Shown: positions 22,085 through 36,662 of the stretch, one piece after another
Numbering within the stretch: the stretch's first letter is position 1
Layout: each line of letters starts with the position of its first letter
Source: Desulfobulbaceae bacterium
GTDB lineage: Bacteria; Desulfobacterota; Desulfobulbia; Desulfobulbales; Desulfobulbaceae
NCBI GenBank assembly: GCA_024763055.1
Contig: JANTGH010000019.1
Span: forward strand, 1 to 37,593
DNA length: 37,593 nucleotides
Reading direction: 5' to 3'
Notes under the pieces: model-generated
Databases searched by the model: none
What the model saw: the letters and a program-made list of their open reading frames with translations, nothing else
Told to the model about the DNA's origin: nothing
Made by a program: the position numbers and the translations under genes

Positions 22085-22357
22085 TCAGGTCGCTGATTTA
22101 AAATGGGTGCAATGATGATGGGTTACATCAATACCTTTCTGACACATAATACTCAAAATTTCCTCTTTACTGAAGATAGATTTTTTTTGATTGCTGATGT
22201 AGACGAGGCAATCTTTACAGATATTAAAGGAACACATATCAATCTCGCACATCACCTCCCAGCAGGGTTTTTCCGCCTTATATGCGGAACATTTCCCGGC
22301 TGCCTCCGGACTGCATTCCATAATTTCCCAGCAGGGCCATTCAGATCTCAACGACAT
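22085..22357 (-). CDS. Two-CW-type cysteine-rich small protein
   Basis: A 90-residue protein; the start at 22357 has GGAGG 7 nt upstream. It contains two CWE motifs: PCWEIMEC followed by KCSAY, then PCWEVM followed by C-x-C-spaced cysteines and KDCLVY. This is the pattern of the two-CW domain proteins common in Desulfobacterota, a probable metal- or cofactor-binding module of unknown function. The C-terminal 40 residues (SIFSKEEILSIMCQKGIDVTHHHC) are helical with His/Cys residues. It is monocistronic, ending in a strong terminator. The same cysteine pattern appears inside the second chemoreceptor at 32.0-32.2 kb. Confidence 0.75.
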   Translation of the reverse strand: MSLRSEWPCWEIMECSPEAAGKCSAYKAEKPCWEVMCEIDMCSFNICKDCLVYISNQKKSIFSKEEILSIMCQKGIDVTHHHCTHFKSAT

Positions 22358-22502
22358 CTCCTTCCCTCCTTGTATAAAAATAATAAAATAAAAAAATAGT
22401 AAAAAGATCAAAAAATCAGAATATGTGCCTGTAGTAAACGACGGTATAGACGGTTTAATTCGTTTAACAGGAAATTAATTTTCTTACTGCGTATAAAATG
22501 CA

Positions 22503-23090
22503 TTACCAGGAATCAACGCCAAATGCAAGCCTCCGACGCAGATCTTCGCAACCCTGACCTGTTTTTGACGAACAGATCAAGCGGTCATCCTTGCTGATAC
22601 CAAGGGCGGCATCAAGAGCGGCAGCATGTTTCATTTGTTTATTTTTCGATAACTTATCAGCCTTGGTGTACACAGGAAGAAAGGACAATCCCTGATAGCC
22701 AAGCCAATCTATAAGTTCCCTGTCCATTTTTTTTAACGGATGCCGCAGATCAAGAATTACAACAACAAGCTGTAATGTCCTTCGCTGCAGGAGATACTCG
22801 GTAATCAGCTGTTGCCAGCCTGCCTGCACCTTTTTCGCGACCCGGGCAAACCCGTACCCGGGCAGGTCAACAAAATATAAGGCCTCGTTAATGAGAAAAT
22901 AATTGAGTCCCTGGGTTTTCCCCGGCCTTGCGCTGGTTTTTACCAGATTTCTTCGACCAAGCAGCGCGTTCATCAAGCTGGACTTGCCCACATTGGACCG
23001 GCCGGCAAAAGCGACCTCCGGAAAATCAGGGGGAGGCAATTGTTTCAGGGAATGAACCGAGATGAGAAATCGGGTTTTGGTACTATGCAT
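22503..23090 (-). CDS. engB: Ribosome biogenesis GTP-binding protein EngB (YihA/YsxC)
   Basis: A 195-residue TrmE-Era-EngA-EngB-Septin-like GTPase needed for large ribosomal subunit assembly. The G1 motif AGRSNVGKSS (residues 29-38), the switch region KTSARPGKTQGLNYF, G3 DLPGYGFA, G4 TKAD and G5 CSSKTG are intact and the length is typical. The start at ATG 23090 is chosen because conserved EngB sequence (RFLISVHSLKQLPP) begins just after it. The frame extends upstream to a TTG at 23165 that lies inside a repeat hairpin. Neither start has a clear ribosome binding site. Confidence 0.93.
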   Translation of the reverse strand: MHSTKTRFLISVHSLKQLPPPDFPEVAFAGRSNVGKSSLMNALLGRRNLVKTSARPGKTQGLNYFLINEALYFVDLPGYGFARVAKKVQAGWQQLITEYLLQRRTLQLVVVILDLRHPLKKMDRELIDWLGYQGLSFLPVYTKADKLSKNKQMKHAAALDAALGISKDDRLICSSKTGQGCEDLRRRLAFGVDSW

Positions 23091-23127
23091 AGGGGATATG
23101 AAATTCAAGGCACAACGTTCAGAGTTA

Positions 23128-23171
23128 ATAATTGTTGGTGTCAGGGCTTTTTGCGATACCGACAATTATTA
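23128..23171. repeat. Dispersed repeat hairpin upstream of engB
   Basis: AATAATTGTTGGTGTC (23128-23143) pairs with GATACCGACAATTATT (23156-23171) over 16 positions with two wobble-type mismatches. The loop contains GGGCTTTTTGC. The string GCTTTTTGCGANACCGACAA recurs at about 25130-25150 and, more diverged, at 36046-36066. Confidence 0.75.
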
Positions 23172-23463
23172 AAAAATCATGTCTCATGTTTTTAGCTCAT
23201 TGCCCCAATCTTCCGGGCGGAGAACCAATAAACAGCTTTTGACCAACCATCTTTCATGGATCCCCGACTACTACCTCGGGGATGACGACCCGACCCCGAC
23301 AACTCCATTCGGGGATGACGAAACAAACCGTTATTTCCGCAGTTTTTAGACGGAAGGGAAGCAAGCCCGAAGTCTTCACTACCTTCCGCTTATTCGCGAG
23401 ACTCCGATCCAGTATAAATCCGCAAAAATCCGGCGTCCTGCGACGGAATACTTGATCAATCGT
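23172..23463. repeat. Palindromic repeats between hisG and engB
   Basis: Two hairpins of the CCCCGA type are present: TCCCCGA/TCGGGGA at 23261-23267 and 23276-23282, and CCCCGA/TCGGGG at 23294-23299 and 23309-23314, each followed by ATGACGA. The sequence before the first (GACCAACCATCTTTC) is repeated in reverse orientation near 36.0 kb. No gene is present in this stretch. Confidence 0.8.
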
Positions 23464-24336
23464 CTAAATAACCTTGTTCAAGGCATATTCAACGATTCCC
23501 TTGGCGCCAAGCTTTCTCAGCATCGGAACCAGATCGCGAACCTGATGCTCGGATATAACAGTCTCCACGGAAAACCAGTCCTGCTTATAAAGCTGGGCTA
23601 CGGTGGGAGCCGTCACGCTGGGAAGTTGTTTAATCAGGGTATCAAGACTTGCCTCGGGAATGTTCATCTTCAAACCGACTATTCGATCGGCCCTGAGCGC
23701 CCCCTGCAGCAGCATGGCAATGTTTTCAATCTTTTCCCGCTTCCACGGGTCCTGCCAGGCGTCTTTATTGGCTATCAGTTCTGTATTTGACTGCATCAAT
23801 TCGTGAATAATACGCAGTCCATGCGCCCGAATAGTTGATTCGGTCTCGGTCACTTCGACAATGGCATCGGCAAGCCCTGAAACGGCCTTGGCCTCGGTTG
23901 CGCCCCAGGAAAATGTGATAGCAACCTGTATTCCCCGCTGCTCAAAAAAATTCCTGGTCACGTTGACAAGCTCGGTGGCAATTCGTTTACCGTCAAGCTG
24001 CTCCACTGTTGTAATTTCAGAGTCTCCGGCAACGGCAATCACCCAACGGGTAGGTTTCTTACTGACCTTGGAATAGACCAGCTCTTCGACCACCTCAATA
24101 TCGGAACCGTTTTCCAGGGTCCAGTCATGACCGGTAATCCCGGCATCCAGCATCCCTGATTCCACATAATTGGACATTTCCTGGGGTCGACAGATTGAGC
24201 AGGATAACTCAGGGTCATCAATTTCAGGAAAATAATTCCTGGACATCAACTTGATCTTCCAACCTGATTTTTCAAACAGTTCGATGGTGGCCTTTTCCAG
24301 GCTGCCTTTGGGGATTCCGATTTTCAGCTGTTGCAT
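23464..24336 (-). CDS. hisG: ATP phosphoribosyltransferase, long form (HisG)
   Basis: A 290-residue enzyme catalysing the first step of histidine synthesis, ATP + PRPP to phosphoribosyl-ATP. The N-terminal IGIPKGSLEKAT, DAGITGHDW, KRIATELVNVTRNFF and the PRPP-loop region with EVTETESTIRAHGLR are clear. The length and the C-terminal segment after about residue 215 (MNIPEASLDTLIKQLPSV through VISEHQVRDLVPMLRKLGAKGI) show the long, hexameric form with a PII-like histidine-feedback domain, so no HisZ is needed. It is 87 bp downstream of hisI on the same strand. No strong ribosome binding site was seen. Confidence 0.97.
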   Translation of the reverse strand: MQQLKIGIPKGSLEKATIELFEKSGWKIKLMSRNYFPEIDDPELSCSICRPQEMSNYVESGMLDAGITGHDWTLENGSDIEVVEELVYSKVSKKPTRWVIAVAGDSEITTVEQLDGKRIATELVNVTRNFFEQRGIQVAITFSWGATEAKAVSGLADAIVEVTETESTIRAHGLRIIHELMQSNTELIANKDAWQDPWKREKIENIAMLLQGALRADRIVGLKMNIPEASLDTLIKQLPSVTAPTVAQLYKQDWFSVETVISEHQVRDLVPMLRKLGAKGIVEYALNKVI

Positions 24337-24423
24337 TTTAATCTGTAACTTTTAACTTTTTGATAACCACGAAAATTCACTAAGATATCTCATAATCAAG
24401 CCAAGTTTCAATGGTGATCAGAT

Positions 24424-24819
24424 TCAACTTTTACCTTTTGACTTTCCATAGACCTCTTCAGGATTAAACACGGGTTTTTGCTCAATGACAAGCTCATCAC
24501 CCTTCACCCGGCGGTAAAAACAACTCTGATACCCCTTGTGACAGGCGGCGCCGCCAAGCTGCTGCACCTGGAAAACAACCGTATCCTTGTCACAATCAAC
24601 GAGAATTTTTTTAATGAGCTGTACATGTCCGGAAGATTCCCCCTTCAGCCAAAGTGTGTTGCGCGACCGGCTCCAATAATGTGCCTTGCCTGTTTTCAGG
24701 GTTTTTTGCCAGGATTCCTTATTTATATAGGCCAGCATCAATATTTCGCCCCCGGCAAAGTCCTGGACAATGGCCGGCAACAATCCATTGGGATCTTTAC
24801 TGAAATCTAACTTGATCAT
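24424..24819 (-). CDS. hisI: Phosphoribosyl-AMP cyclohydrolase (HisI)
   Basis: A 131-residue enzyme that opens the adenine ring of phosphoribosyl-AMP in histidine synthesis. Diagnostic segments are [37 protein letters not shown], the Mg-binding DCDKDT and the Zn-binding [11 protein letters not shown]. It is the single-domain form without a fused HisE. AGGA lies about 10 nt before the ATG. It is placed between a small Cys protein gene (25 bp upstream) and hisG, probably as one operon. Confidence 0.96.
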
Positions 24820-24844
24820 GACATTTTCATCCTGTTACAAAAAA

Positions 24845-25030
24845 TTATTGCTCTTTTTTCTCTCTTTCATCCTTATCCGTGGCAATCGCCTTCTTCTCTT
24901 CCCTTTTGTTTTCTTTTTCCATAAAATTAATGATGCAGCCGGTCCTGTACTGACAAAAATCATTGGGATGGCGGCAGACCGGAGAGACGGAATCAACCTT
25001 TTCCTTGTACTTTTCACATTCAAGTTCCAT
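24845..25030 (-). CDS. Small cysteine-containing conserved-looking protein
   Basis: A 61-residue protein MELECEKYKEKVDSVSPVCR... with four cysteines in its first 40 residues (C-x14-C-x6-C-x5-C), then NFMEK and a highly charged Lys/Glu tail. I judge it real because the spacing to hisI is 25 bp, AAGGGA lies 5 nt before the ATG, and the Cys spacing (CRHPNDFCQYRTGC) looks like a metal-binding module. Function is unknown. The tail is low-complexity and may be disordered. Confidence 0.6.
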   Translation of the reverse strand: MELECEKYKEKVDSVSPVCRHPNDFCQYRTGCIINFMEKENKREEKKAIATDKDEREKKEQ

Positions 25031-25048
25031 GAGATTCCCTTAAATATG

Positions 25049-25150
25049 ATGGTGTCGCAAAGAGTATTAATCGGCATAAAAATACAACGCAGAATAAACA
25101 TGTTACACGATTTTCACCATCAGTGTCGGGGCTTTTTGCGACACCGACAA
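25049..25150. repeat. Inverted copies of the GCGACACC repeat upstream of the hisI operon
   Basis: GGTGTCGCAAAGAG (from about 25050) faces CTTTTTGCGACACC (to about 25145) across roughly 67 bp, like short terminal inverted repeats. The right copy is itself a hairpin, TGTCGG/CCGACA (25124-25129 and 25144-25149), matching the dispersed repeat at 23.15 kb. It lies in the leader of the small-Cys-protein/hisI/hisG unit. Confidence 0.6.
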
Positions 25151-25388
25151 ATATGCCTGTGCACATTTAGGCTGTAGCGTCTTCTTTGTCAAGACCGGTC
25201 AACAGGAATATTGTCCGCGCTGCTTCCTCCGATCTCTGTCCCCGTATAAAAAAACCTGCCCGACAAGAGATTGTTTTTTAATTCGAGGTCGACTACATTA
25301 CATGAAGTCCATGGAAACAGATCCGGTCCAAAATTACAGACCGGCACCACTATTATCATAACTATCCATATATACCAAGGTTTCATTC
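25151..25388. other. Region between the his unit and slyD-like gene
   Basis: About 240 bp; with the adjoining repeat this makes about 360 bp without a confident gene. A 65-codon minus-strand frame (25189-25386) was not accepted. Promoters for both divergent units should lie here but were not assigned. Confidence 0.4.
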
Positions 25389-25829
25389 ATGTGCCCAGTC
25401 GCCCTCACAGACACAGTAAGTATCAGCTATACCGTTACCCTTGAATCCGGTGAAGTTGTTGAAAAAGTTCCAGCCACCAAGCCCATCCACCTGAGCATCG
25501 GTTCGGGCAGGGTTTTAAAAGCCGTTGAGGCCAGCCTGTTAGGCATGAACCCCGGGGAAACCAGAACCGTGCGGATCCTGCCGGAAGACGCCTACGGGCC
25601 ACATCATACCAATCTTGTCCACGATATCAAGCTATCGGTTTTCAGCGGCAGGATTGCCCCCAAACCCGGAATGATCCTTTCCCTTACCGTGGAAAAGGAC
25701 GGCAGAGAGGAACAGGTTCCAGCCACAGTTCTCTCTGTAAACAGTGAAAATGTTACTGTTGATTATAACCATCCCCTTGCCGGCAAGGTCCTCACCTATG
25801 CCGTTACCCTCCATGCCATAGGGACCTGA
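25389..25829 (+). CDS. FKBP-type peptidyl-prolyl isomerase, SlyD-like
   Basis: A 146-residue cytoplasmic prolyl isomerase/chaperone of the SlyD/FkpB group. The N-terminal half has DTVSISYTVTLESGEVVEK, then the FKBP core GSGRVLKAVEASLLGMNPGE and VRILPEDAYGP. The insert-in-flap domain follows, and the chain ends with VTVDYNHPLAGKVLTYAVTL, the typical SlyD closing segment. It lacks the His/Cys-rich metal-binding tail of E. coli SlyD. Weak AAGG lies 8 nt before the ATG. It is convergent with a small minus-strand gene only 13 bp away. Confidence 0.93.
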   Translation: MCPVALTDTVSISYTVTLESGEVVEKVPATKPIHLSIGSGRVLKAVEASLLGMNPGETRTVRILPEDAYGPHHTNLVHDIKLSVFSGRIAPKPGMILSLTVEKDGREEQVPATVLSVNSENVTVDYNHPLAGKVLTYAVTLHAIGT

Positions 25830-26067: not shown

Positions 26068-26285
26068 TGCCATTTCTCCCGTTGCAGCCGAGTTGATAAT
26101 TTTTCTCAATTTTTTTTCACAAATAAAAAAAACCTGTACAATCTCTTTTCGATCCGTACAATACCAATAGAGGATTAAGAAAGCAAACCGCCATGCAGAC
26201 GATGGTGGCGGCAGGGAACTATGGGTCGTTCCATCTGTTTTTTCCCTGTATATATTTTAACAATACTGCACTCTTGGAGAAAAAA

Positions 26286-29204
26286 ATGTCCATAGAAGAT
26301 GATGAAATTTTGCAGGGATTTATTGAGGAATCACTGGAACATCTTGCCGACATTGAAAATGACCTGCTGGCTATTGAGGAAGGCGGCGCCGACATTGATG
26401 TCGATCTGGTCAACAAGGTTTTCCGTGCCGCCCATTCGATCAAAGGCGGGGCCGGTTTCATGGGGCTTACGGTCATTCAGAACCTGGCCCATGCCGCCGA
26501 GAATGTTCTTGGTTTGATCAGAAGTGAAAAGCTGGTCCCTGATCCCGACATTGTCAATGTTCTCCTGCTCGCCTCCGATGAGTTGCAGCAGCTCATTGAG
26601 GATGTGGAAAACAGTAATGATGTTGACATCACTGAGCATGTCGAAGCCTTAAACACTATCTACGAAGGCGGCAATGCCCCTCAGAAACCTTCTGACCAGC
26701 AGGAAGAGAAGAAAGAAGCCCCGGCCGAACCTGAGCCGCCCGCAATGGAGGCCGAATCAACGCCGATCGCTGAAGAACAGGAACCGCCGAAAGCCGTCGC
26801 CGAACCCGCGGCTGAAAGCACACCCGAACCTGTTGTTGAACAGACGCCTGAGCCCACTCCGGAGCCTGCCCCGACAACAACGGCGGCGCCGGCGGCCGTC
26901 AGCAGCCCGGATGTAAAACCTGCGGCAAAAAAACCCGCAAAAAAGGCAAAAAGCAGCACTCATAAAACCGATACCTCCATTCGGGTAACGGTCAGTCTCC
27001 TTGACCAGCTGATGAACCTTGCCGGAGAGCTTGTCCTGTCCCGCAACCAGCTCTTACAGACCATCACCTCTGGAGATGTCCGCAATGCAGAAGCTGTCGG
27101 CCAGCGCATCGATCTGGTTACCTCGGAATTGCAGGAAGCCATCATGCTGACCAGGATGCAGCCCATCGGCAACGTGTTCAATAAATTTCCGCGCGTGGTC
27201 CGTGACCTGTCCAAGAAGCTCAGTAAGCAGATGGACCTGACCATTGTCGGCAAGGATGTTGAACTCGATAAAACCATTATTGAGTCGATCAATGATCCCC
27301 TGACCCATCTTGTCAGAAATTCCGTTGACCACGGGGTGGAATCCCCGGATGAACGGGCGAGAAAAGGAAAAAACCCCAAGGGATTAATCGTTCTCAAGGC
27401 CTACCACGCGGCTGGCCAGGTCGTGATCGAGATCAGTGATGACGGCAAGGGTCTTGACGGAAATATATTAGCCGAAACCGCGATCAACAAAGGGTTGATC
27501 ACGCCCGAGCAGGCCAAGGCCATGTCGGATAAGGAACGGATCAACCTGATCCTGCTGCCCGGATTTTCCACGGCAAAAAAGGTCACCGATGTCTCCGGAC
27601 GCGGCGTGGGCATGGATGTGGTCAAGACCAACCTTGATCAGCTTGGCGGTTCCATTGAAATCGAGTCCGAAATCGGCAAGGGAAGCACCATCAGTATTAA
27701 ACTTCCCCTGACCCTGGCCATTATTCCCTGCCAGATTGTTATGACCGGCGGCGAGCGGTATGCCATTCCCCAGGTCAATCTTGAAGAGCTGCTTCGCATT
27801 CCCGCCGCCAAAGTCAAGGAACGGGTCGAGCGGGTCGGCAATGCAGAGGTCGTCCGGTTGCGGGGCAACCTTCTGCCATTGATCCGGCTCTCCGACGTGC
27901 TTGATATCCCGCGAACCTATTATGACCCGACAAGCGATGAGGTCAATCCTGATCGCCGCCGTGTGGTGGCCGACCGCCGGTCCAAATCCAGCCCTCTTTC
28001 CGCCGGTCAGGCGCCGGAAGAGCGCAGCAAAGAGCAGGCCGAAACTCCAACCTGTAAACGGGAGGATAAAGATCGCAGGCAGAGTCCTGCCAGCGCTCTG
28101 AACATTGTGGTTGTTTCCACAGGTTCCATGAAATACGGCCTGATTGTCGACCGTCTTCAGGATTCCGAAGAAATTGTTATCAAACCGCTTGGCAGGCATT
28201 TGCAGCAATGCAAGGGCTACGCCGGCGCCACCATTATGGGAGATGGTCGTATTGCTCTTATCCTTGATGTCAGCAACCTCTCCCGCATGGCCGGACTCAC
28301 CTCGCTCGATGGCACTGAGCGCGCCAACGAACTGGCGGAAGCGGCCAAGGACGCCATTATCAAGGCCAAGGATAAACAGGCCCTGCTGACCTTTTCCAGC
28401 TCGCCGAATGAACAGTTTGCGGTTCCGCTCAATCAGGTGGAACGGGTGGAAAAAATCAAGCACAGCGATATTGAAGAGGTCGGCGGCAGACGGGTCATGC
28501 AATACCGAGGCGGCAGTCTGCCGCTGCTCGCTATTGATGAGGTTGCCATGGTGCAGCCGCTTGCCGATCAGGATGATCTGCTGGTCATTGTCTTTAATCT
28601 TGCCGGCAAAGACATCGGCCTGCTTGCCATCGGTCCGATCGACGCCATAGAAATTGCCGCCGATATCGACGATGTCACCTTAAAACAGACAGGAATCATG
28701 GGGTCTGCAATAATCAATGGTCACACCACCATGCTGGTTGACATTTTTGAAATAGTGCAGACCATCAATCCTGAATGGTTCGCCGACCACGCCATTTCCG
28801 AAACAGTAGCCGAAGAAGGTGAGGCCCCGACCATCCTCATTGTTGAAGACTCCAATTTCTTCCGCAACCAGGTACGCGGCTACATGGAAGAGGCGGGCTT
28901 TAATGTGCTGGAAGGCGAAGATGGCGTCGAGGCCCTGCAAGTCCTTGAGGACCATCTTGACGAGATCACCATGGTGGTCACCGATATTGAAATGCCCAAC
29001 ATGAACGGTTTTGAAATGACGGAGAAAATACGCCGGGATTCCAGATTCGCTCACCTGCCGGTCATTGCCCTGACCACCCTGGCCGGTGATGAAGACGTGG
29101 CCAAGGGCAAAGCCGTCGGCATTGATGAATACCATATCAAACTTGACAAGGAACGCCTGATGGAATGCGTGCACCGCTATGTCAAGGAAGCGGAAACGGT
29201 CTGA
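26286..29204 (+). CDS. cheA: Hybrid chemotaxis histidine kinase CheA with C-terminal receiver
   Basis: A 972-residue CheA; ATG 26286 is chosen because TTGGAG lies 6 nt upstream and the HPt domain begins there. Order: P1 HPt with phospho-acceptor His50 (AAHSIKGGAGF); a Pro/Glu/Ala- and Lys-rich linker (about 125-228) in place of a recognisable P2; P3 dimerisation (about 230-290); HATPase (about 330-470, NDPLTHLVRNSVDHGVE, SGRGVGMDVV); a CheW-like P5 (about 475-670) interrupted by a charged insert at about 545-600; a second CheW-like domain (about 698-830); and a receiver (about 848-970) with Asp900. It phosphorylates CheB and response regulators under receptor control. It is first gene of the chemosensory operon and is followed by an MCP after 19 bp. 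Confidence 0.95.
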   Translation: MSIEDDEILQGFIEESLEHLADIENDLLAIEEGGADIDVDLVNKVFRAAHSIKGGAGFMGLTVIQNLAHAAENVLGLIRSEKLVPDPDIVNVLLLASDELQQLIEDVENSNDVDITEHVEALNTIYEGGNAPQKPSDQQEEKKEAPAEPEPPAMEAESTPIAEEQEPPKAVAEPAAESTPEPVVEQTPEPTPEPAPTTTAAPAAVSSPDVKPAAKKPAKKAKSSTHKTDTSIRVTVSLLDQLMNLAGELVLSRNQLLQTITSGDVRNAEAVGQRIDLVTSELQEAIMLTRMQPIGNVFNKFPRVVRDLSKKLSKQMDLTIVGKDVELDKTIIESINDPLTHLVRNSVDHGVESPDERARKGKNPKGLIVLKAYHAAGQVVIEISDDGKGLDGNILAETAINKGLITPEQAKAMSDKERINLILLPGFSTAKKVTDVSGRGVGMDVVKTNLDQLGGSIEIESEIGKGSTISIKLPLTLAIIPCQIVMTGGERYAIPQVNLEELLRIPAAKVKERVERVGNAEVVRLRGNLLPLIRLSDVLDIPRTYYDPTSDEVNPDRRRVVADRRSKSSPLSAGQAPEERSKEQAETPTCKREDKDRRQSPASALNIVVVSTGSMKYGLIVDRLQDSEEIVIKPLGRHLQQCKGYAGATIMGDGRIALILDVSNLSRMAGLTSLDGTERANELAEAAKDAIIKAKDKQALLTFSSSPNEQFAVPLNQVERVEKIKHSDIEEVGGRRVMQYRGGSLPLLAIDEVAMVQPLADQDDLLVIVFNLAGKDIGLLAIGPIDAIEIAADIDDVTLKQTGIMGSAIINGHTTMLVDIFEIVQTINPEWFADHAISETVAEEGEAPTILIVEDSNFFRNQVRGYMEEAGFNVLEGEDGVEALQVLEDHLDEITMVVTDIEMPNMNGFEMTEKIRRDSRFAHLPVIALTTLAGDEDVAKGKAVGIDEYHIKLDKERLMECVHRYVKEAETV

Positions 29205-29223: not shown

Positions 29224-30936
29224 ATGAAAAATCTAAGCATCAAGTGGAAAATTTTATTTCTGGTTGTTCTCGGCCCTGTCCTTGTGGGCTCGATCCTTGC
29301 CTGGCAGCGGGTCAATGACATCCGCAAGGGCGCTGAACATGCTATTATTTCAAAAAGCAGCGGAATTGTCCTGATGGCGGAGGCCACTCGTGACCGAATG
29401 GCAAAGAAGCTCAAGAGCGGTGTTATCACGCCCTTTGACCAGCTGAACGCAGACAACATTTTAGATGCCGTGCCGGTGGTAACCGCCCTCCAGGTCGCCT
29501 CAGACAAGGCCCAGGAGGCCGGTTATACTTTCCGGGCACCAAAAATGTCGCCGAGAAATCCGAAAAATACGCCCACCGCCCTGGAGCAGCAGGTGCTTGC
29601 CGAACTTAAAAATAAAAATCTATCTGAAAAGATCATTATAGAAAAGGACCAGATCAGATATTTCAAACCCATCCGGCTGACCAGCGAGTGTTTGTTCTGC
29701 CACGGCGATCCAAAAGGCGAGGCAGATGTGACCGGCGGCATCAAAGAGGGATGGAAAACCGGTGAAATACATGGCGCATTTGAAATCACCAGTTCCCTGG
29801 CCGAGGCCAACAGGGCGGTTGCCCGGGCCAGGATAAATGTCCTTCTCTGGCTGCTCGGAATCATCGGTTTTGTCGTGGCGGTTACCTGGATTATCCTGCA
29901 GCGTTCAATCGTTACCACCCTGCGCCAGGCCAATACCTTTATGGACACTGTTGCCCGGGGCGACCTGACAGGAACGCTCAAGGCAAAAACCGGGGACGAA
30001 ATCGGCCGGATGGTGCTCAACATGGGCGAGATGACCCGCAAGCTGAACGAACTGGTGAAGGACATCGGCTCTTCCAGCGCCACCCTGCTTGATTCTTCCA
30101 ATGAATTAGGGGCCACTGCCGATGAGTTCACGGAAAGCGCCGAAGATACCGCCGGTCGCACAAATTCGGTAGCGGCGGCGGCCGAGGAGATGAGCGCCAA
30201 CATGGCGACCGTTGCCGCGGCCACCGAAGAGGCGGCCACCAACATTGCCCTTGTTTCCACGGCAACCGATGAGATGACCTCGACCATCAACGGTATTGTC
30301 ACCTCTACGGAAAAGGCGCAGACCATTACCAAGACTGCCGTTGAAGAGGCCGGATCCGCCTCGGAAAAGGTTGATGAGTTAGGCATTGCCGCCAATGAAA
30401 TCGGCAAGGTAACCGAGACCATTACGGAAATCTCCGAACAGACCAACCTGTTAGCCTTAAATGCCACTATTGAGGCGGCCCGGGCCGGAGAGGCGGGCAA
30501 GGGTTTTGCCGTTGTTGCCAATGAAATCAAGGAACTGGCCAAGCAGACTGCCGAGGCCACAGGTGAAATCAAATCCCGCATCGATTCCATCCAGAATTCC
30601 ACCGAGGGCACAGTGGATCAGATCGGACAGATCACCAGGGTCATCAGCGAGGTGAATGAAATCGTAGCCTCCATTGTCACCGCGGTTGAGGAACAGTCGG
30701 CCACAACCGGCGAGATCGCCGAGAATATCAGCCAGGCCTCTATCGGTATCCAGGAGGTAACGGAAAACGTGGCCCAGGTCTCCACCGTGGCCGGCGAAGT
30801 AGCCCAGGATATCGGTGAAGTCAACCAGGCCTCGGAAGCTATTTCCAAAGGGTCGGCCGATGTCCGGACCAGTACTGATCGACTCAATGAAGTGGCAAGA
30901 CATCTCCGGAAAATGATAGATCGTTTTAAAGTCTAA
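29224..30936 (+). CDS. Methyl-accepting chemotaxis protein with periplasmic c-type haem motif
   Basis: A 570-residue transmembrane chemoreceptor. TM1 is about residues 9-26 and TM2 about 205-224. The periplasmic domain between them resembles DUF3365/Tll0287-like sensors and contains CLFCH (C156, C159, H160), a canonical covalent haem-c site, within a [16 protein letters not shown] context. HAMP follows (about 225-280), then a long signalling helix pair with the conserved hairpin [19 protein letters not shown]. The C-terminus RFKV lacks a CheR-binding pentapeptide. AGGAG lies 8 nt before the ATG. The likely stimulus is redox state or a small gas or ligand bound by haem, inferred from the family. 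Confidence 0.9.
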
Positions 30937-30982: not shown

Positions 30983-33142
30983 ATGAATTTTCTTCGACGC
31001 ATTACACCCAAAAGGGTAAAAACCAGGACCCTGGTGGCCCTTGGGATCATTATCGGCTTGATGATCGCCGTTCCGGTCATCCTGATGTATCGGAGCACTA
31101 TAAATGATGCTCGCAAAAAGACCACGACAACGCTTGAATATGATGCTGCCGTGATCAATCAACAACTACTTGAGCGTAGCGCGACACAACTGCGACTCCT
31201 GGCCCATGCCATTGCCGATAGTCTCAAAGTGCAGGAATACTTTGGGCAGCGGGACAGGGTGGCTCTGCTTGGAGTGACCATGCCCATTTACCATGATCTC
31301 AAAAAGATTATTGACCTCAACGTATTTCACTTTCACCTGCCGCCGGCAACCTCCTTTCTCCGGTTGCAGAAGCCCGGCAAACACGGTGATGATCTCTCAA
31401 GCTTTCGCCACACCGTGCTTGCCGTCAACAGAACCCATCAGGACGCATTCGGTCTTGAGGTCGGCAGGGCCGGTGTCTCTGTACGCGCCGTTGTTCCGGT
31501 CAATTATGAAGGACAGCCGGTTGGATCGGTGGAGTTCGGCATGCCGATCAACGATACCCTGCTGAAAACCATCAAGGAAAAAGTCGGGGTTGATTTTTCC
31601 TTTGTCATCCCTGACGGCAACGGCTTTAAATATCAGGCTAAGACCATGGCCGGCAATCTGTTGCCGGAAACCTATCCCCTGTTAAGTAAAGTTATGCAAG
31701 ATGGGAAAGAGACTATTGTCGAAAGCAAAAAAGATGGCAGAGATGTTATATCCATATATACGCCCTTGCCTGATTACAGCGGCAAGCTGGTAGGAGTGAC
31801 AATCGTGCCGCTGGATATCACCGACAAACTGACTGCCGCAAAAAAATCCGCTCTTACCATTGTTGGAATGGGTCTGCTTGCCCTTGTGGCAGTTCTGGTT
31901 CTTGTCTTTTTCATTTTCAACTTTATGATTGACCGGCCGTTGCATGCAGTCAACAAGGTGCTTGAAGCTGCCTCTAGTGGTGATCTCAGCACCCAGGCCG
32001 ATACCTCGAAAATTGCCGGTGTCAACTGTTCCGAGACTCTACAATGCGGCAAAACCGACTGCTCCATGTACGGCAAAACCGGCTATTGCTGGGAAGAGGC
32101 CGGTTCTGCCTCTCCTAACATTCAGTGCCCGAAGATTCTTTCCGGTGAATACAATTCCTGCAGCGAATGCAAGGCCTGTTACGGGGCCGTTGTCCAGGAC
32201 GAATTTTCCGAACTCAATGTTTCGGTGCATGCCCTTATTGCCAATACCCGGAAAATGGTGCGGGATATTCGGGAGAACAGCAGCAACCTGAATCTGTCTT
32301 CGGACAACCTTTCCAGTGTTGCTGAGCAAATGAATTCCGAAGCCTCGAATACTTCCCAGCGGTCAGAGAGTGTTGCCGCGGCGGCTGAAGAGATGAGCAC
32401 CAACATGGGCAGCGTGGCCGCAGCCACGGAAGAGGCGGCAGCTAATGTCAACATGATGACCACGGCCACCGAGGAAATCGGCTCCACGGTTGGCGAGATC
32501 CAGCAATCCACGGCCAAGGCCAAGGATATCACCGACCAGGCGGTTAAGGAAGCTGTTGATATCTCGGCCAAGGTGGATGAACTGGGCGATTCGGCCCAGG
32601 ACATCGGCAAGGTCACGGAAACCATCACCGAAATTTCCTCCCAGACCAACCTGCTTGCCTTAAATGCCACCATTGAAGCGGCCAGGGCCGGTGAGGCAGG
32701 CAAGGGCTTTGCCGTTGTCGCCAATGAAATCAAGGACCTGGCCAAACAGACGGCCGAGGCGACCGGCGAAATCAAACAACGGATCGAAAGCATCCAGAAC
32801 TCAACGAGTGTCACTGTCGGCGGCATTAGAACCATTACCGAAATCATCAATGAAATTGACGAAATCGTCTCCAACATCGCAACCGCCCTTGATGAACAGG
32901 CCGGCACCATGACCGAGCTGACCGTCAATATCCAGCAGGCCGGTGAGGGAATCGGTGAGGTCGCGGAAAACGTGGCGCAAAGCTCGACTGTTTCCCAGGA
33001 AATTGCAACCGACATTACCCAGGTCAACCAGGCGGCTGGTGAAATCACGGAAGGAACCAGCCAGGTTAAGGAAAAGGCAAATGAGCTCAAAGGGTATGCC
33101 GCCAACCTGAGGACACTGATTGAAAAATTCAACCTTGGTTAA
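30983..33142 (+). CDS. Methyl-accepting chemotaxis protein with dCache-type sensor and Cys-rich cytoplasmic insert
   Basis: A 719-residue chemoreceptor. TM1 is about residues 17-35 and TM2 about 292-314. The periplasmic region matches the dCache_3 pattern (VFHFHLPPATSFLRLQKPGKHGDDLSSFR and GLEVGRAGVSVRAVVPV, which are separate strings in the protein). Between HAMP and the signalling domain is an insert with eight cysteines in about 51 residues (349, 355, 360, 369, 382, 393, 396, 399) including YCWEEAG and CSECKAC. The signalling hairpin [19 protein letters not shown] is intact and there is no terminal pentapeptide. AGGAG lies 8 nt before the ATG. The insert resembles the two-CW protein at 22.1 kb and may bind a metal or sense redox state. 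Confidence 0.92.
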   Translation: MNFLRRITPKRVKTRTLVALGIIIGLMIAVPVILMYRSTINDARKKTTTTLEYDAAVINQQLLERSATQLRLLAHAIADSLKVQEYFGQRDRVALLGVTMPIYHDLKKIIDLNVFHFHLPPATSFLRLQKPGKHGDDLSSFRHTVLAVNRTHQDAFGLEVGRAGVSVRAVVPVNYEGQPVGSVEFGMPINDTLLKTIKEKVGVDFSFVIPDGNGFKYQAKTMAGNLLPETYPLLSKVMQDGKETIVESKKDGRDVISIYTPLPDYSGKLVGVTIVPLDITDKLTAAKKSALTIVGMGLLALVAVLVLVFFIFNFMIDRPLHAVNKVLEAASSGDLSTQADTSKIAGVNCSETLQCGKTDCSMYGKTGYCWEEAGSASPNIQCPKILSGEYNSCSECKACYGAVVQDEFSELNVSVHALIANTRKMVRDIRENSSNLNLSSDNLSSVAEQMNSEASNTSQRSESVAAAAEEMSTNMGSVAAATEEAAANVNMMTTATEEIGSTVGEIQQSTAKAKDITDQAVKEAVDISAKVDELGDSAQDIGKVTETITEISSQTNLLALNATIEAARAGEAGKGFAVVANEIKDLAKQTAEATGEIKQRIESIQNSTSVTVGGIRTITEIINEIDEIVSNIATALDEQAGTMTELTVNIQQAGEGIGEVAENVAQSSTVSQEIATDITQVNQAAGEITEGTSQVKEKANELKGYAANLRTLIEKFNLG

Positions 33143-33169: not shown

Positions 33170-33661
33170 ATGGAAACACAGACAAATCAAGATAAAAACA
33201 TCCTTGAACTTGCCACCTTTTATATTGGTGATGCCCTTTGCGGCATGGACATCTTGAAAGTTCAGGAAATCAATAAGTTGATGGAGATGACCAAGGTGCC
33301 ACAGGCCCCTGATTATGTAGATGGAATTTTAAACCTGCGCGGTCAGATTGTTACCATTGTTGATCTTGGGAAAAAATTAGGGCTTGGGGAAACCGATCTG
33401 GGCGATGATCCCCGCAACATCATAGTCAATGCGCCGGGAGAACATATTGGCCTGCTGGTCCGGCGTATCAGCGATGTGGTTATGGCCGATCCCGACCGCA
33501 TCGAATCCGCGCCGGCTAATATGAGCGGTATTCAGGGGACATTTTTTACCGGCGTCTATAAAACCGAAAATAAACTGATCGGTATTCTCAACGTCGAGGA
33601 GGTGTTGAAAATAGAGAAGGAAAGCCATCGCCATGGGCGGGCGGGAAATTTTGATAATTGA
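33170..33661 (+). CDS. cheW: Chemotaxis coupling protein CheW
   Basis: A 163-residue single-domain CheW that links receptors to CheA at the membrane array. Characteristic stretches are ELATFYIGDALCGMDILKVQEI, VPQAPDYVDGILNLRGQIVTIVDL and ILNVEEVLKIE. GAGGAT lies about 12 nt before the ATG. It directly follows the second MCP (27 bp). Confidence 0.96.
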   Translation: METQTNQDKNILELATFYIGDALCGMDILKVQEINKLMEMTKVPQAPDYVDGILNLRGQIVTIVDLGKKLGLGETDLGDDPRNIIVNAPGEHIGLLVRRISDVVMADPDRIESAPANMSGIQGTFFTGVYKTENKLIGILNVEEVLKIEKESHRHGRAGNFDN

Positions 33662-33842
33662 GCCATGGTTCAGGACATGAGCTCACGCATGCTGCGTGGT
33701 GTCACGAAAGTGAGCCAGACCGTCTGGTGGAGATAAAACACTGATCACCATCGCCACAGGCGCAAACTGAACCGTCTTCTGTCCTCTGTCCTCTGTCCTC
33801 TGTCCTCTGTCCTCTGTCTTCAGATAAAGATATCAGGTAATC
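33662..33842. repeat. Heptanucleotide repeat tract upstream of cheB
   Basis: TCTGTCC is repeated five times without interruption at 33778-33812, followed by a partial sixth copy ending in TCTGTCT. The tract ends about 25 nt before the cheB ATG, just upstream of AGGTAA. Copy-number change by slippage could alter the leader or spacing. CCAGACCGTCTGG (near 33715) is a small palindrome in the same 181-bp gap. No gene was seen. Confidence 0.85.
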
Positions 33843-34955
33843 ATGCTTGCAAAAAAAATAAAAGTGCTTGTTGTGGACGATACTATTGTATACCGCAAGG
33901 CCGTCAGTGATGTTCTACAAGAGATCCCCGGAGTTGAGGTGGTCGGAGTTGCTCATAATGGCAAAATTGCAATGTCGAAAGTCAAAACCCTCAAGCCCGA
34001 TCTTCTCACCCTTGACATTGAAATGCCTGAAATGAACGGCATTGAAGTGTTGGAGCATCTGCACAAAGAAGCGCCCGGAGTCAGCGCCATCATGGTCTCC
34101 ACCCTGACCTCCGAAGGTGGGGACATGACCATGAAAGCGCTTGAGCTCGGCGCCTATGACTTCCTGCTCAAACCAAATACAACCAACATTGCCGACTCAA
34201 AAAAACAGTTACGTGGACTCCTGACACCTTTGATCAAGGCCTTTCAAACGGGCAGAACAACAGTCGGATCCATGGGTGGTCGGCCTCCACGTCCACGCCC
34301 TTTGCCGGCAGCAGGCAGGCAACGAACTCCTGCCCGTCCCGCCAACGCAGTTGCAAGGGGAGCCGTTCGACGGGGTAAATCCGAGATAGTGACCATCGGC
34401 ATTTCCACCGGCGGACCCAACGCGCTTGCACGGATGATGCCCATGCTGCCCGGTGACCTGGGAGTGCCCATTGTTCTGGTCCAGCACATGCCGCCGGTCT
34501 TCACCAAATCACTTGCCGCCAGCCTGAATGCGAAATGCGCTCTGTCCGTCAAAGAGGCTGAAGATGGTGAACCAATCCGGGCAAATGTCGCCTACATCGC
34601 TCCGGGAGGAAAACAGATGAAGCTGGTTGCCTCAACCGACGGACAAAACCGGCTAATCAAACTGACCAATGATCCCCCGGAAAATTCATGCAGACCGTCG
34701 GTCGACTATCTCTTCCGCTCGGTTGCCGACTACTATGTGGGCCGGACTACTGCCGTCATTATGACCGGTATGGGCTCGGACGGGACAAAGGGGCTGGAAA
34801 TCCTGAAGAAAAAATCGGCCGTCATCATCGGCCAGGACAGGGCGACATGCGTTGTCTACGGCATGCCCAAAACGCCGGCGGAAAAAGGACTGATTGATGT
34901 GGTCGCCCCGCTTGACCGCATTGCCGCTGAAATCACCAAGACGGTGAAAGGATAA
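33843..34955 (+). CDS. cheB: Chemotaxis response regulator methylesterase CheB
   Basis: A 370-residue protein-glutamate methylesterase/deamidase that demethylates MCPs for adaptation. The receiver (1-120) has acidic pocket VDD at 11-13, phospho-acceptor Asp58 and Lys110. A basic Pro/Arg-rich linker spans about 140-178. The catalytic domain has Ser188 (GISTGGPNAL), His215 (LVQHMPP) and Asp313 (MTGMGSDGTKG). The length is typical. AGG lies 6-8 nt before the ATG. A heptamer repeat tract lies just upstream. cheR follows after 13 bp. Confidence 0.96.
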   Translation: MLAKKIKVLVVDDTIVYRKAVSDVLQEIPGVEVVGVAHNGKIAMSKVKTLKPDLLTLDIEMPEMNGIEVLEHLHKEAPGVSAIMVSTLTSEGGDMTMKALELGAYDFLLKPNTTNIADSKKQLRGLLTPLIKAFQTGRTTVGSMGGRPPRPRPLPAAGRQRTPARPANAVARGAVRRGKSEIVTIGISTGGPNALARMMPMLPGDLGVPIVLVQHMPPVFTKSLAASLNAKCALSVKEAEDGEPIRANVAYIAPGGKQMKLVASTDGQNRLIKLTNDPPENSCRPSVDYLFRSVADYYVGRTTAVIMTGMGSDGTKGLEILKKKSAVIIGQDRATCVVYGMPKTPAEKGLIDVVAPLDRIAAEITKTVKG

Positions 34956-34968
34956 GCAGACCCGGGCC

Positions 34969-35805
34969 ATGATCAAGATCACTCCCGAAGAACTCAAGAC
35001 AATAACCGGCTATATTCACGATATTTCCGGTATCCATCTCGAGGCTTCAAAAAAATACCTTCTTGAAACAAGACTTTCCAGTGTTGTCGAAGAACACGGT
35101 TGCGGCAGCTATCAGGAACTCTACCAGAAGGCGAAACGGGATGCCCGCAAGGTCATTGAAAAACAGATCATTGATGCTATTTCCACCAACGAAACACTGT
35201 TCTTTCGAGATAACGGGCCCTTTGAACTGTTACGCAACAAAATTCTCCCGGACCTGATTGATGCCCGCACACCGAGATCACCACGCCTGAAAACACCCCT
35301 GCGCATCTGGAGCGCCGCCTCGTCCACCGGCCAGGAAGTGTACTCCATTGCCATTGTCCTCAAAGAATTGTTAAACGATATTTCTAAATACAATATCAAA
35401 CTGTTAGGTACCGACATTTCCGATGCGGCGGTCAAACAGGCCAGTATGGGAAAATACAATAAATTTGAAATTGAACGCGGCCTGACCCGAGACAAGCTCA
35501 ATAAATATTTTACCCTGTCCGGTGGGTTCTGGAAAATCAAGGATGAAATCAGGGCAATGGCTAATTTTCGCAAACTCAATCTCATGCTGCCCTTTGCCGG
35601 ATTAGGCAAATTTGATATTGTTTTTTGTCGAAATGTGGCTATTTATTTTACTCTCGAAGACCGGAAAAAACTGTTTAACAAAATTGCGGATATCCTTGAA
35701 CCGGACGGCTATCTCATTATCGGTTCAACGGAATCATTGACTGGTATCTGCTCTCGTTTTACGCCCAAAAGGCATTTGCGCTCAATTTTTTATCAATTGA
35801 AATAA
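34969..35805 (+). CDS. cheR: Chemotaxis protein methyltransferase CheR
   Basis: A 278-residue SAM-dependent glutamate methyltransferase acting on MCP signalling helices. The N-terminal helical domain (1-70) precedes ISTNETLFFRD (71-81), the SAM site WSAASSTGQEVYSIA (114-128), GTDISDAAV and FCRNVAIYF. There is no TPR extension. Both MCPs here lack a pentapeptide tether, so this CheR probably acts without tethering. It is the last gene of the chemosensory unit before a repeat array. Confidence 0.96.
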   Translation: MIKITPEELKTITGYIHDISGIHLEASKKYLLETRLSSVVEEHGCGSYQELYQKAKRDARKVIEKQIIDAISTNETLFFRDNGPFELLRNKILPDLIDARTPRSPRLKTPLRIWSAASSTGQEVYSIAIVLKELLNDISKYNIKLLGTDISDAAVKQASMGKYNKFEIERGLTRDKLNKYFTLSGGFWKIKDEIRAMANFRKLNLMLPFAGLGKFDIVFCRNVAIYFTLEDRKKLFNKIADILEPDGYLIIGSTESLTGICSRFTPKRHLRSIFYQLK

Positions 35806-35854
35806 TGATGTTCTGCTGAAAAGTGTTATCCTTGGAAAGTCGTTGAATCCGTCA

Positions 35855-36000
35855 TTCCTGAGGTAGTACGTCATCTGCGGGTGTTGTTGTCGGGGACGAA
35901 TCGTCATCCCCGGGTGTTGTTGTCGGGGACGAATCGTCATCCCCGAGTGTTGCTGTCGGGGACGAATCGTCATCCCCGAGTGTTGCTGTCGGGGATCCAG
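35855..36000. repeat. 33-bp tandem repeat array with hairpin-forming units
   Basis: A 33-bp unit begins at 35881, 35914, 35947 and 35980 (last copy partial, ending CGGGGATCCAG). Each unit holds CGGGGACGAATCG then TCATCCCCG, so it can fold on itself or pair with neighbours. The right edge continues into sequence repeated in inverted orientation at 23.24 kb. No gene is present in the 293-bp gap. Confidence 0.9.
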
Positions 36001-36098
36001 AAAGATGGTTGACCGCAAGATGCACTCTGGATTTAGGTTTAAGACTTTTTACGAAACCGACAAATAATGGCGCTTTGTTTTACGTTGGAGGATTCTTT

Positions 36099-36662
36099 AT
36101 GAACATGTCAATTCTTGTTGCCGACGATGATCCTGTAATCCGTCGTCTGTTGGAAAAAAGACTTGGGGACGTGGGATACGGTGTGACAGTTGCCGTTGAT
36201 GGCGTTGAAGCGGCCGGGAAGTTGGCTTCCTCCCATTTCGATGTGGTTATAACCGACCTCGTCATGCCGGGAGATATCGGTGGAATTGAACTTTTGCAGA
36301 TTGCAAAAGATAAGGATATAATGACGGAAGTCATTGTCATAACCGCACATTCATCAATTGACACCGCTGTGGATGCCATGAAAAAAGGGGCCGTTGATTA
36401 TCTTGAAAAACCGGTCAATTTTGATGAACTGTTCCTGCGGCTTGAAAAAATTGCTCAGCTTAAATCTCTTGTCCGTAATGCTGATGACCTGCGAAATGCC
36501 ATGGATGTCACCGAGTCGTCAGCCGCGCAAACTATTCAGAACCTGGAAATTACCGCTGCTGATTTACAGTTGAAAATTGATCAAATCGATACATTCCTTC
36601 GCGATTCTCAGCTTAATGAGTATGATAAAATTGACAAGGCGCTGCAGGTTATCGGTTCCTGA
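36099..36662 (+). CDS. Response regulator with receiver domain and C-terminal coiled coil
   Basis: A 187-residue protein; the start at 36099 has GGAGG 7 nt upstream. Residues 1-118 are a receiver with acidic pair D10/D11, phospho-acceptor Asp53 (ITDLVMPGDIGG), the Thr in VITAHSS and Lys104 (YLEKPVN). Residues about 120-187 have a heptad-like, probably coiled-coil pattern and no DNA-binding or enzymatic output domain. Its position just past cheR makes it a candidate output regulator for this chemosensory system, though it has its own leader. It could also pair with the HPt protein at 5.9 kb. Both links are inference. Confidence 0.85.
   Translation: MNMSILVADDDPVIRRLLEKRLGDVGYGVTVAVDGVEAAGKLASSHFDVVITDLVMPGDIGGIELLQIAKDKDIMTEVIVITAHSSIDTAVDAMKKGAVDYLEKPVNFDELFLRLEKIAQLKSLVRNADDLRNAMDVTESSAAQTIQNLEITAADLQLKIDQIDTFLRDSQLNEYDKIDKALQVIGS

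Follow-up and report, generated by a model that had tools for sequence, protein, structure and literature searches.

A two-CW-like cysteine module predicted within the HAMP domain of a Desulfobulbaceae chemoreceptor

Why does a chemoreceptor with a periplasmic sensor domain carry a dense cluster of cysteines on its cytoplasmic side, and what might that cluster do there? The question is raised by a 719-residue chemoreceptor (MCP) encoded in the window, by which we mean the whole stretch of DNA analyzed here (37,593 nucleotides). The protein consists of TM1, a periplasmic dCache_3 domain (residues 58–282), TM2, a split HAMP domain with the cysteine module, and an MCP signaling domain (MCPsignal PF00015, residues 511–683, E = 4.5e-32), and its gene lies in a chemotaxis cluster (Table 1). 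The Pfam assignment of dCache_3 bears out the periplasmic dCache input proposed in a preliminary description of this DNA, and the position of the cysteines after TM2 agrees with the cytoplasmic location given there.

Table 1. Features of the window discussed in the text, with positions numbered from its first nucleotide.
Feature	Position	Strand	Residues or length	Remarks
Chemoreceptor (MCP)	30983..33142	+	719 aa	ORF translation, Pfam
HAMP first half: AS1 and the part of the connector before the insert	31931..32023	+	317–347, DRPLHAVNKVLEAASSGDLSTQADTSKIAGV	
Eight-cysteine module	32027..32179	+	C349 to C399	7/8 Cys kept in relatives
HAMP second half: D-E motif and AS2	32198..32269	+	406–429, DEFSELNVSVHALIANTRKMVRDI	
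Neighboring MCP, Tll0287-like sensor domain	29224..30936	+	unsplit HAMP 226–275	
CheA (Hpt, dimerisation, HATPase, CheW, receiver)	26193..29204	+		head of the MCP's chemotaxis cluster
CheW, CheB, CheR, response regulator	33170..36662	+		downstream of the MCP
Stand-alone two-CW-like protein P0002	22085..22357	-	90 aa	last gene of hisI-hisG-engB-P0002 run

The cysteine content of the receptor had been described correctly: the eight cysteines noted at residues 349–399, within positions 32015–32200, are the only ones in the protein (C349, C355, C360, C369, C382, C393, C396, and C399). They are spaced C-x5-C-x4-C-x8-CW-x11-C-x10-C-x2-C-x2-C, and the chance of eight randomly placed cysteines falling in so short a span is approximately 4e-8. 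A single CW dipeptide is present (C369–W370), and C349 is followed by S350. Relatives were sampled from 146 genomes of the order and 297 genomes of the phylum. In an alignment of 35 members, C349, C360, C369, W370, C393, and C396 are invariant, and C355 and C382 are each found in 34. The same six residues are invariant among 50 full-length MCPs and kinases, in which C355 is retained in at least 90%, and the cysteines together with the CW are the most conserved residues of the module. C399 is replaced by Val in 26 of the 35 relatives, and the alignment therefore indicates that seven, not eight, module cysteines are conserved, the eighth being lineage-specific.

The module had been placed between HAMP and the signaling domain. 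HAMP normally comes after TM2, and a Pfam search with the whole 719-residue MCP reported no HAMP. Read by eye, AS1 (RPLHAVNKVLEAASSGDL) precedes the insert and AS2 (DEFSELNVSVHALIANTRKMV) comes after it, with the GDL at the start of the connector upstream and the D-E motif downstream. The AS1 features are an RP at residues 318–319, which supplies the Pro expected near the start of the helix, and G333 at the boundary of AS1 and connector, the latter kept in 31 of 35 members. D406–E407 is present and conserved; the window motif reads DEFS, which lacks the G of DExG and stands in register with the homologous DEIG of the neighboring MCP. In a chimera, the DExG motif restored transmembrane input to HAMP (PMC3570549).

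Five comparisons bear on this assignment. In the intact receptor, positions 8–30 of the Pfam HAMP model align to the first half. Removal of the module in silico increased the match from 12.7 to 17.8 bits and extended it to model positions 8–52, a score that even after excision stays under the PF00672 gathering cut-off of 25 bits. The match improved in all five proteins tried, with partial matches becoming longer or joined; one relative rose from 30.2 to 34.2 bits, and the post-excision scores of relatives were 26.2, 34.2, and 33.5 bits. Among 35 diverse members, HAMP was detected in 21 intact sequences and in 26 after excision. The neighboring MCP provides a control for the insertion point within the window: its BLAST alignment to the 719-residue MCP runs for 313 residues ungapped and begins exactly at D406 (D258 of the neighbor), the residue that opens the AS2 motif and approximately position 35 of the HAMP model. 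In a MAFFT alignment, HAMP is uninterrupted at this point in four further MCPs encoded by the same genome. A search of the PDB with the family profile matched AS1 and the connector of the AF1503 HAMP before the module and the HtrII HAMP after it, both matches being weak (E 0.005 to 0.9); among solved structures, only these HAMP flanks were matched, and none was found for the module or for P0002. Finally, 47 of 82 members have both a G-[DNE]-L-like motif upstream of the module and a D-E-like motif downstream of it, compared to 0.76 expected with shuffled flanks, at near-constant distances (mostly 13–16 residues before the first cysteine and 3–4 after the module).

Because the excision, BLAST, own-genome, PDB-profile, and motif results agree, we conclude from these comparisons that the module interrupts HAMP where the connector meets AS2, just ahead of the D-E of the DExG motif, and does not follow HAMP as previously thought. 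The region shares with the PF00672 HAMP the order AS1, GDL connector start, D-E, and AS2 between TM2 and the kinase-control helices, but approximately 55 extra residues with the cysteine module intervene between connector and AS2. The predicted position, which joins a HAMP relay to a two-CW-like module, is more unusual than the one first proposed. An AlphaFold monomer model of the split HAMP (residues 300–440, built with five sequences) had a mean pLDDT of 46 and a pTM of 0.23, too poor for use, also with regard to the cysteine site.

The insert resembles the two-CW domain of NCBIfam (NF045718 two_CW_domain, curated cut-off 35 bits), an uncharacterized family. The two share the seven-cysteine order, the central CW, and the C-terminal C-x2-C, but the window insert has one CW instead of two and a displaced fifth cysteine, and it gives no match to NF045718 at E ≤ 5. 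L032, a histidine kinase whose HAMP is split in the same way, scores 38.7 bits against this model, over the cut-off, and an MCP relative (L024) scores 17.6 bits. The seven cysteines align with those of bona fide two-CW members in a single alignment, and a profile built from MCP inserts and the one kinase L032 retrieves more canonical two-CW kinases with E-values down to 1e-11. The suggested profile relationship to two-CW proteins is thus upheld for the family, whose profile matches two-CW kinases, and not for the window insert itself, which NF045718 does not recognize. By the strict test the insert is not an NF045718 member; we regard it as a divergent two-CW-like module, compact and cytoplasmic, with seven conserved cysteines, at the HAMP connector/AS2 junction. 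The Pfam near-matches (DUF116 over the C-terminal part, Vanabin-2, and DUF4165) of the insert or of P0002 fell below the cut-off and were taken to reflect composition.

Variants of the arrangement were also observed. One MCP (L115:1772-3076) carries in its HAMP region a canonical two-CW module, with two CW-type cysteines and a GTxC at the fifth position. The window MCP has the one-CW form instead, and the contrast suggests that chemoreceptors with a cysteine module in HAMP arose more than once. In two other such MCPs (L017 and L018) the first half of the module is rearranged, with the second cysteine lost and an extra cysteine nearby, a difference that should be useful for assigning cysteine partners.

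The module is common in related bacteria. A match was found in 61 of the 146 order genomes and in 95 of the 297 phylum genomes (68 of 199 genera); in the list of phylum matches, 99 of the first 105 entries span AS1, module, and AS2. By hand count among the matches listed, at least about 63 of the 297 phylum genomes encode proteins with this layout, MCPs as well as histidine kinases; in the survey of MCPs that the preliminary description called for, the insert recurs. The outputs identified by Pfam in 50 members divide equally between MCPsignal (25) and HATPase_c (25), and two of the 50 also carry CZB. The module is found in other settings as well: stand-alone, behind an XRE-type HTH (L037 from the same genome and L098, by Pfam; L095 and L097 resemble these proteins without a Pfam match), in proteins with a Ser/Thr kinase, and at the C-terminal end of kinases (L092 and L093). 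No relatives were found in the viral contigs searched. The range of outputs to which the module is fused suggests that it serves as a cytoplasmic sensor or signal-input module.

We lean, with modest confidence, toward a mechanism in which a metal-binding or redox-labile module in HAMP allows the receptor to sum its dCache_3 input and an intracellular input on the way to CheA. The module cysteines would bind a metal, either Zn or an Fe-S cluster, and the bound metal would hold the ends of the module together such that HAMP could still form. The metal occupancy or cluster state of the module, or the oxidation of its thiols, would be set by the cell interior, and a change in any of these could shift the conformational balance of HAMP at the point where the connector enters the output helix. 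The intracellular signal, probably redox or metal, would thereby be added to the periplasmic one at HAMP, and the combined input would pass to CheA. The layout of the protein suits the integration of a second signal, as had been argued earlier, and metal or redox sensing by the module is plausible.

Another possibility is that the module is a structural element only, a Zn-knuckle-like fold that stiffens a weak HAMP connector and senses nothing. The invariance of its cysteines resembles that of structural zinc sites, and the window HAMP scores weakly even after excision. We nevertheless consider this explanation unlikely, as the module is also found alone, with HTH domains or Ser/Thr kinases, and at kinase C-termini, where there is no HAMP to stabilize.

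A third explanation involves protein binding: the module could be a docking site for another protein, perhaps a two-CW protein similar to P0002, that tunes or localizes the receptor. Homologous stand-alone proteins do occur in the same genomes. P0002 has cysteines at positions 9, 15, 23, 32, 37, 42, 47, 50, 72, and 83 and two CW dipeptides (C9–W10 and C32–W33), and it gives no match to NF045718 at E ≤ 1. When the MCP inserts and the P0002 family were compared profile to profile, the probability was 82.6% and the score 31.0, above the maxima from shuffles of columns (17.2) and from shuffles with the Cys columns kept fixed (19.3); the signal was lost once the cysteines were masked. The probability increased to 94.4% when the canonical kinase and HAMP flanks were included. 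The closest 11 MCPs alone matched weakly (13.7%, score 20.5, just over the shuffle maxima), and the case for homology consequently rests on the wider family. On this profile evidence, which goes beyond the spacing of the cysteines, the insert and the P0002 family are likely homologous. The matching cysteine pattern claimed for the two proteins is shared except at the fifth position, at which no cysteine is conserved in the P0002 family; the C-terminal C83 is conserved there instead.

Homology and the profile match would favor docking, but the genomic distribution of P0002 argues against it. The gene order P0002-engB-hisG-hisI / FKBP-cheA-MCP-MCP-cheW-cheB-cheR-RR-mazG is kept in the window and in three other genomes (G001, G012, and G022), and because this whole order is conserved, the nearness of P0002 to the receptor is attributable to general synteny. 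A specific P0002–receptor pair inferred from proximity was rejected on these grounds. The P0002 family, found in 90 of 146 order genomes, has a much wider distribution than the MCP subfamily and is present in many genomes lacking the latter. Conversely, P0002 is absent from some genomes that bear the MCP (G005, G020, and G133); neither G133 nor G020 has its receptor in such a cluster, and P0002 was sought in both and not found. A special relationship between the receptor and this neighboring protein is therefore not supported, and we regard docking as improbable. Least likely is a thiol/disulfide switch without metal, in which oxidation would form disulfides that lock HAMP: many conserved cysteines do lie close to the HAMP control point, but seven conserved cysteines, a C-x2-C spacing, and an invariant Trp look more like a metal site, and the cytoplasm of anaerobes is strongly reducing.

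Returning to the metal- or redox-responsive module, the AS1–module–AS2 arrangement recurs in at least a fifth of the sampled related genomes, and such receptors may therefore sense both the inside and the outside of the cell. We tentatively propose, with somewhat less than even confidence, that chemoreceptors and histidine kinases of Desulfobacterota include a new dual-input class of HAMP with a metal/redox cysteine module at the connector/AS2 junction. HAMP is usually seen as a passive relay from sensor to output. If the proposal is correct, a sensor module in the connector makes HAMP an input point and offers a natural handle on the connector strain that sets HAMP state. Cytoplasmic signal input would also be a suggested function for the uncharacterized two-CW module, which recurs over chemotaxis, kinase, and transcription-factor outputs of anaerobes.

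In the open-access literature, which leaves most subscription journals outside, we found no paper on the two-CW module or on a split HAMP. Closest in function among published systems are the CZB chemoreceptors (TlpD and McpA), whose metal-binding sensing module is likewise cytoplasmic and includes Cys (PMC6715182, PMC13370339). CZB binds Zn via three His and one Cys (PMC13370339), and thus differs in ligands, as well as in position, from the seven-cysteine HAMP module; Pfam found no match to CZB (PF13682) in the window MCP. Redox-type sensing in related anaerobes is represented by the c-type heme MCP sensors GSU0582 and GSU0935 of Geobacter and by DcrA (PMC8396549, PMC3460858). Their cofactor is a periplasmic heme, whereas the window module is cytoplasmic and has no heme motif.

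Additional features of this genome and its relatives were noted. The same genome encodes, on contig C34 (L037:1495-1863), a 123-residue protein in which a two-CW module lies behind an XRE-type HTH; this protein and similar ones from other genomes of the phylum (L095–L098) look like one-component regulators. In three proteins (L073, L076, and L081), a two-CW module at the N-terminus precedes a cyclic-nucleotide-binding domain and then a Ser/Thr protein kinase. At least four genomes keep the hisI-hisG-engB-P0002 run (window positions 22085–25829) together with the che cluster beside it. Lastly, the neighboring MCP has a CLFCH motif (CxxCH-type, heme c) in its Tll0287-like sensor domain and is possibly a periplasmic redox receptor encoded beside the receptor with the cysteine module in HAMP.
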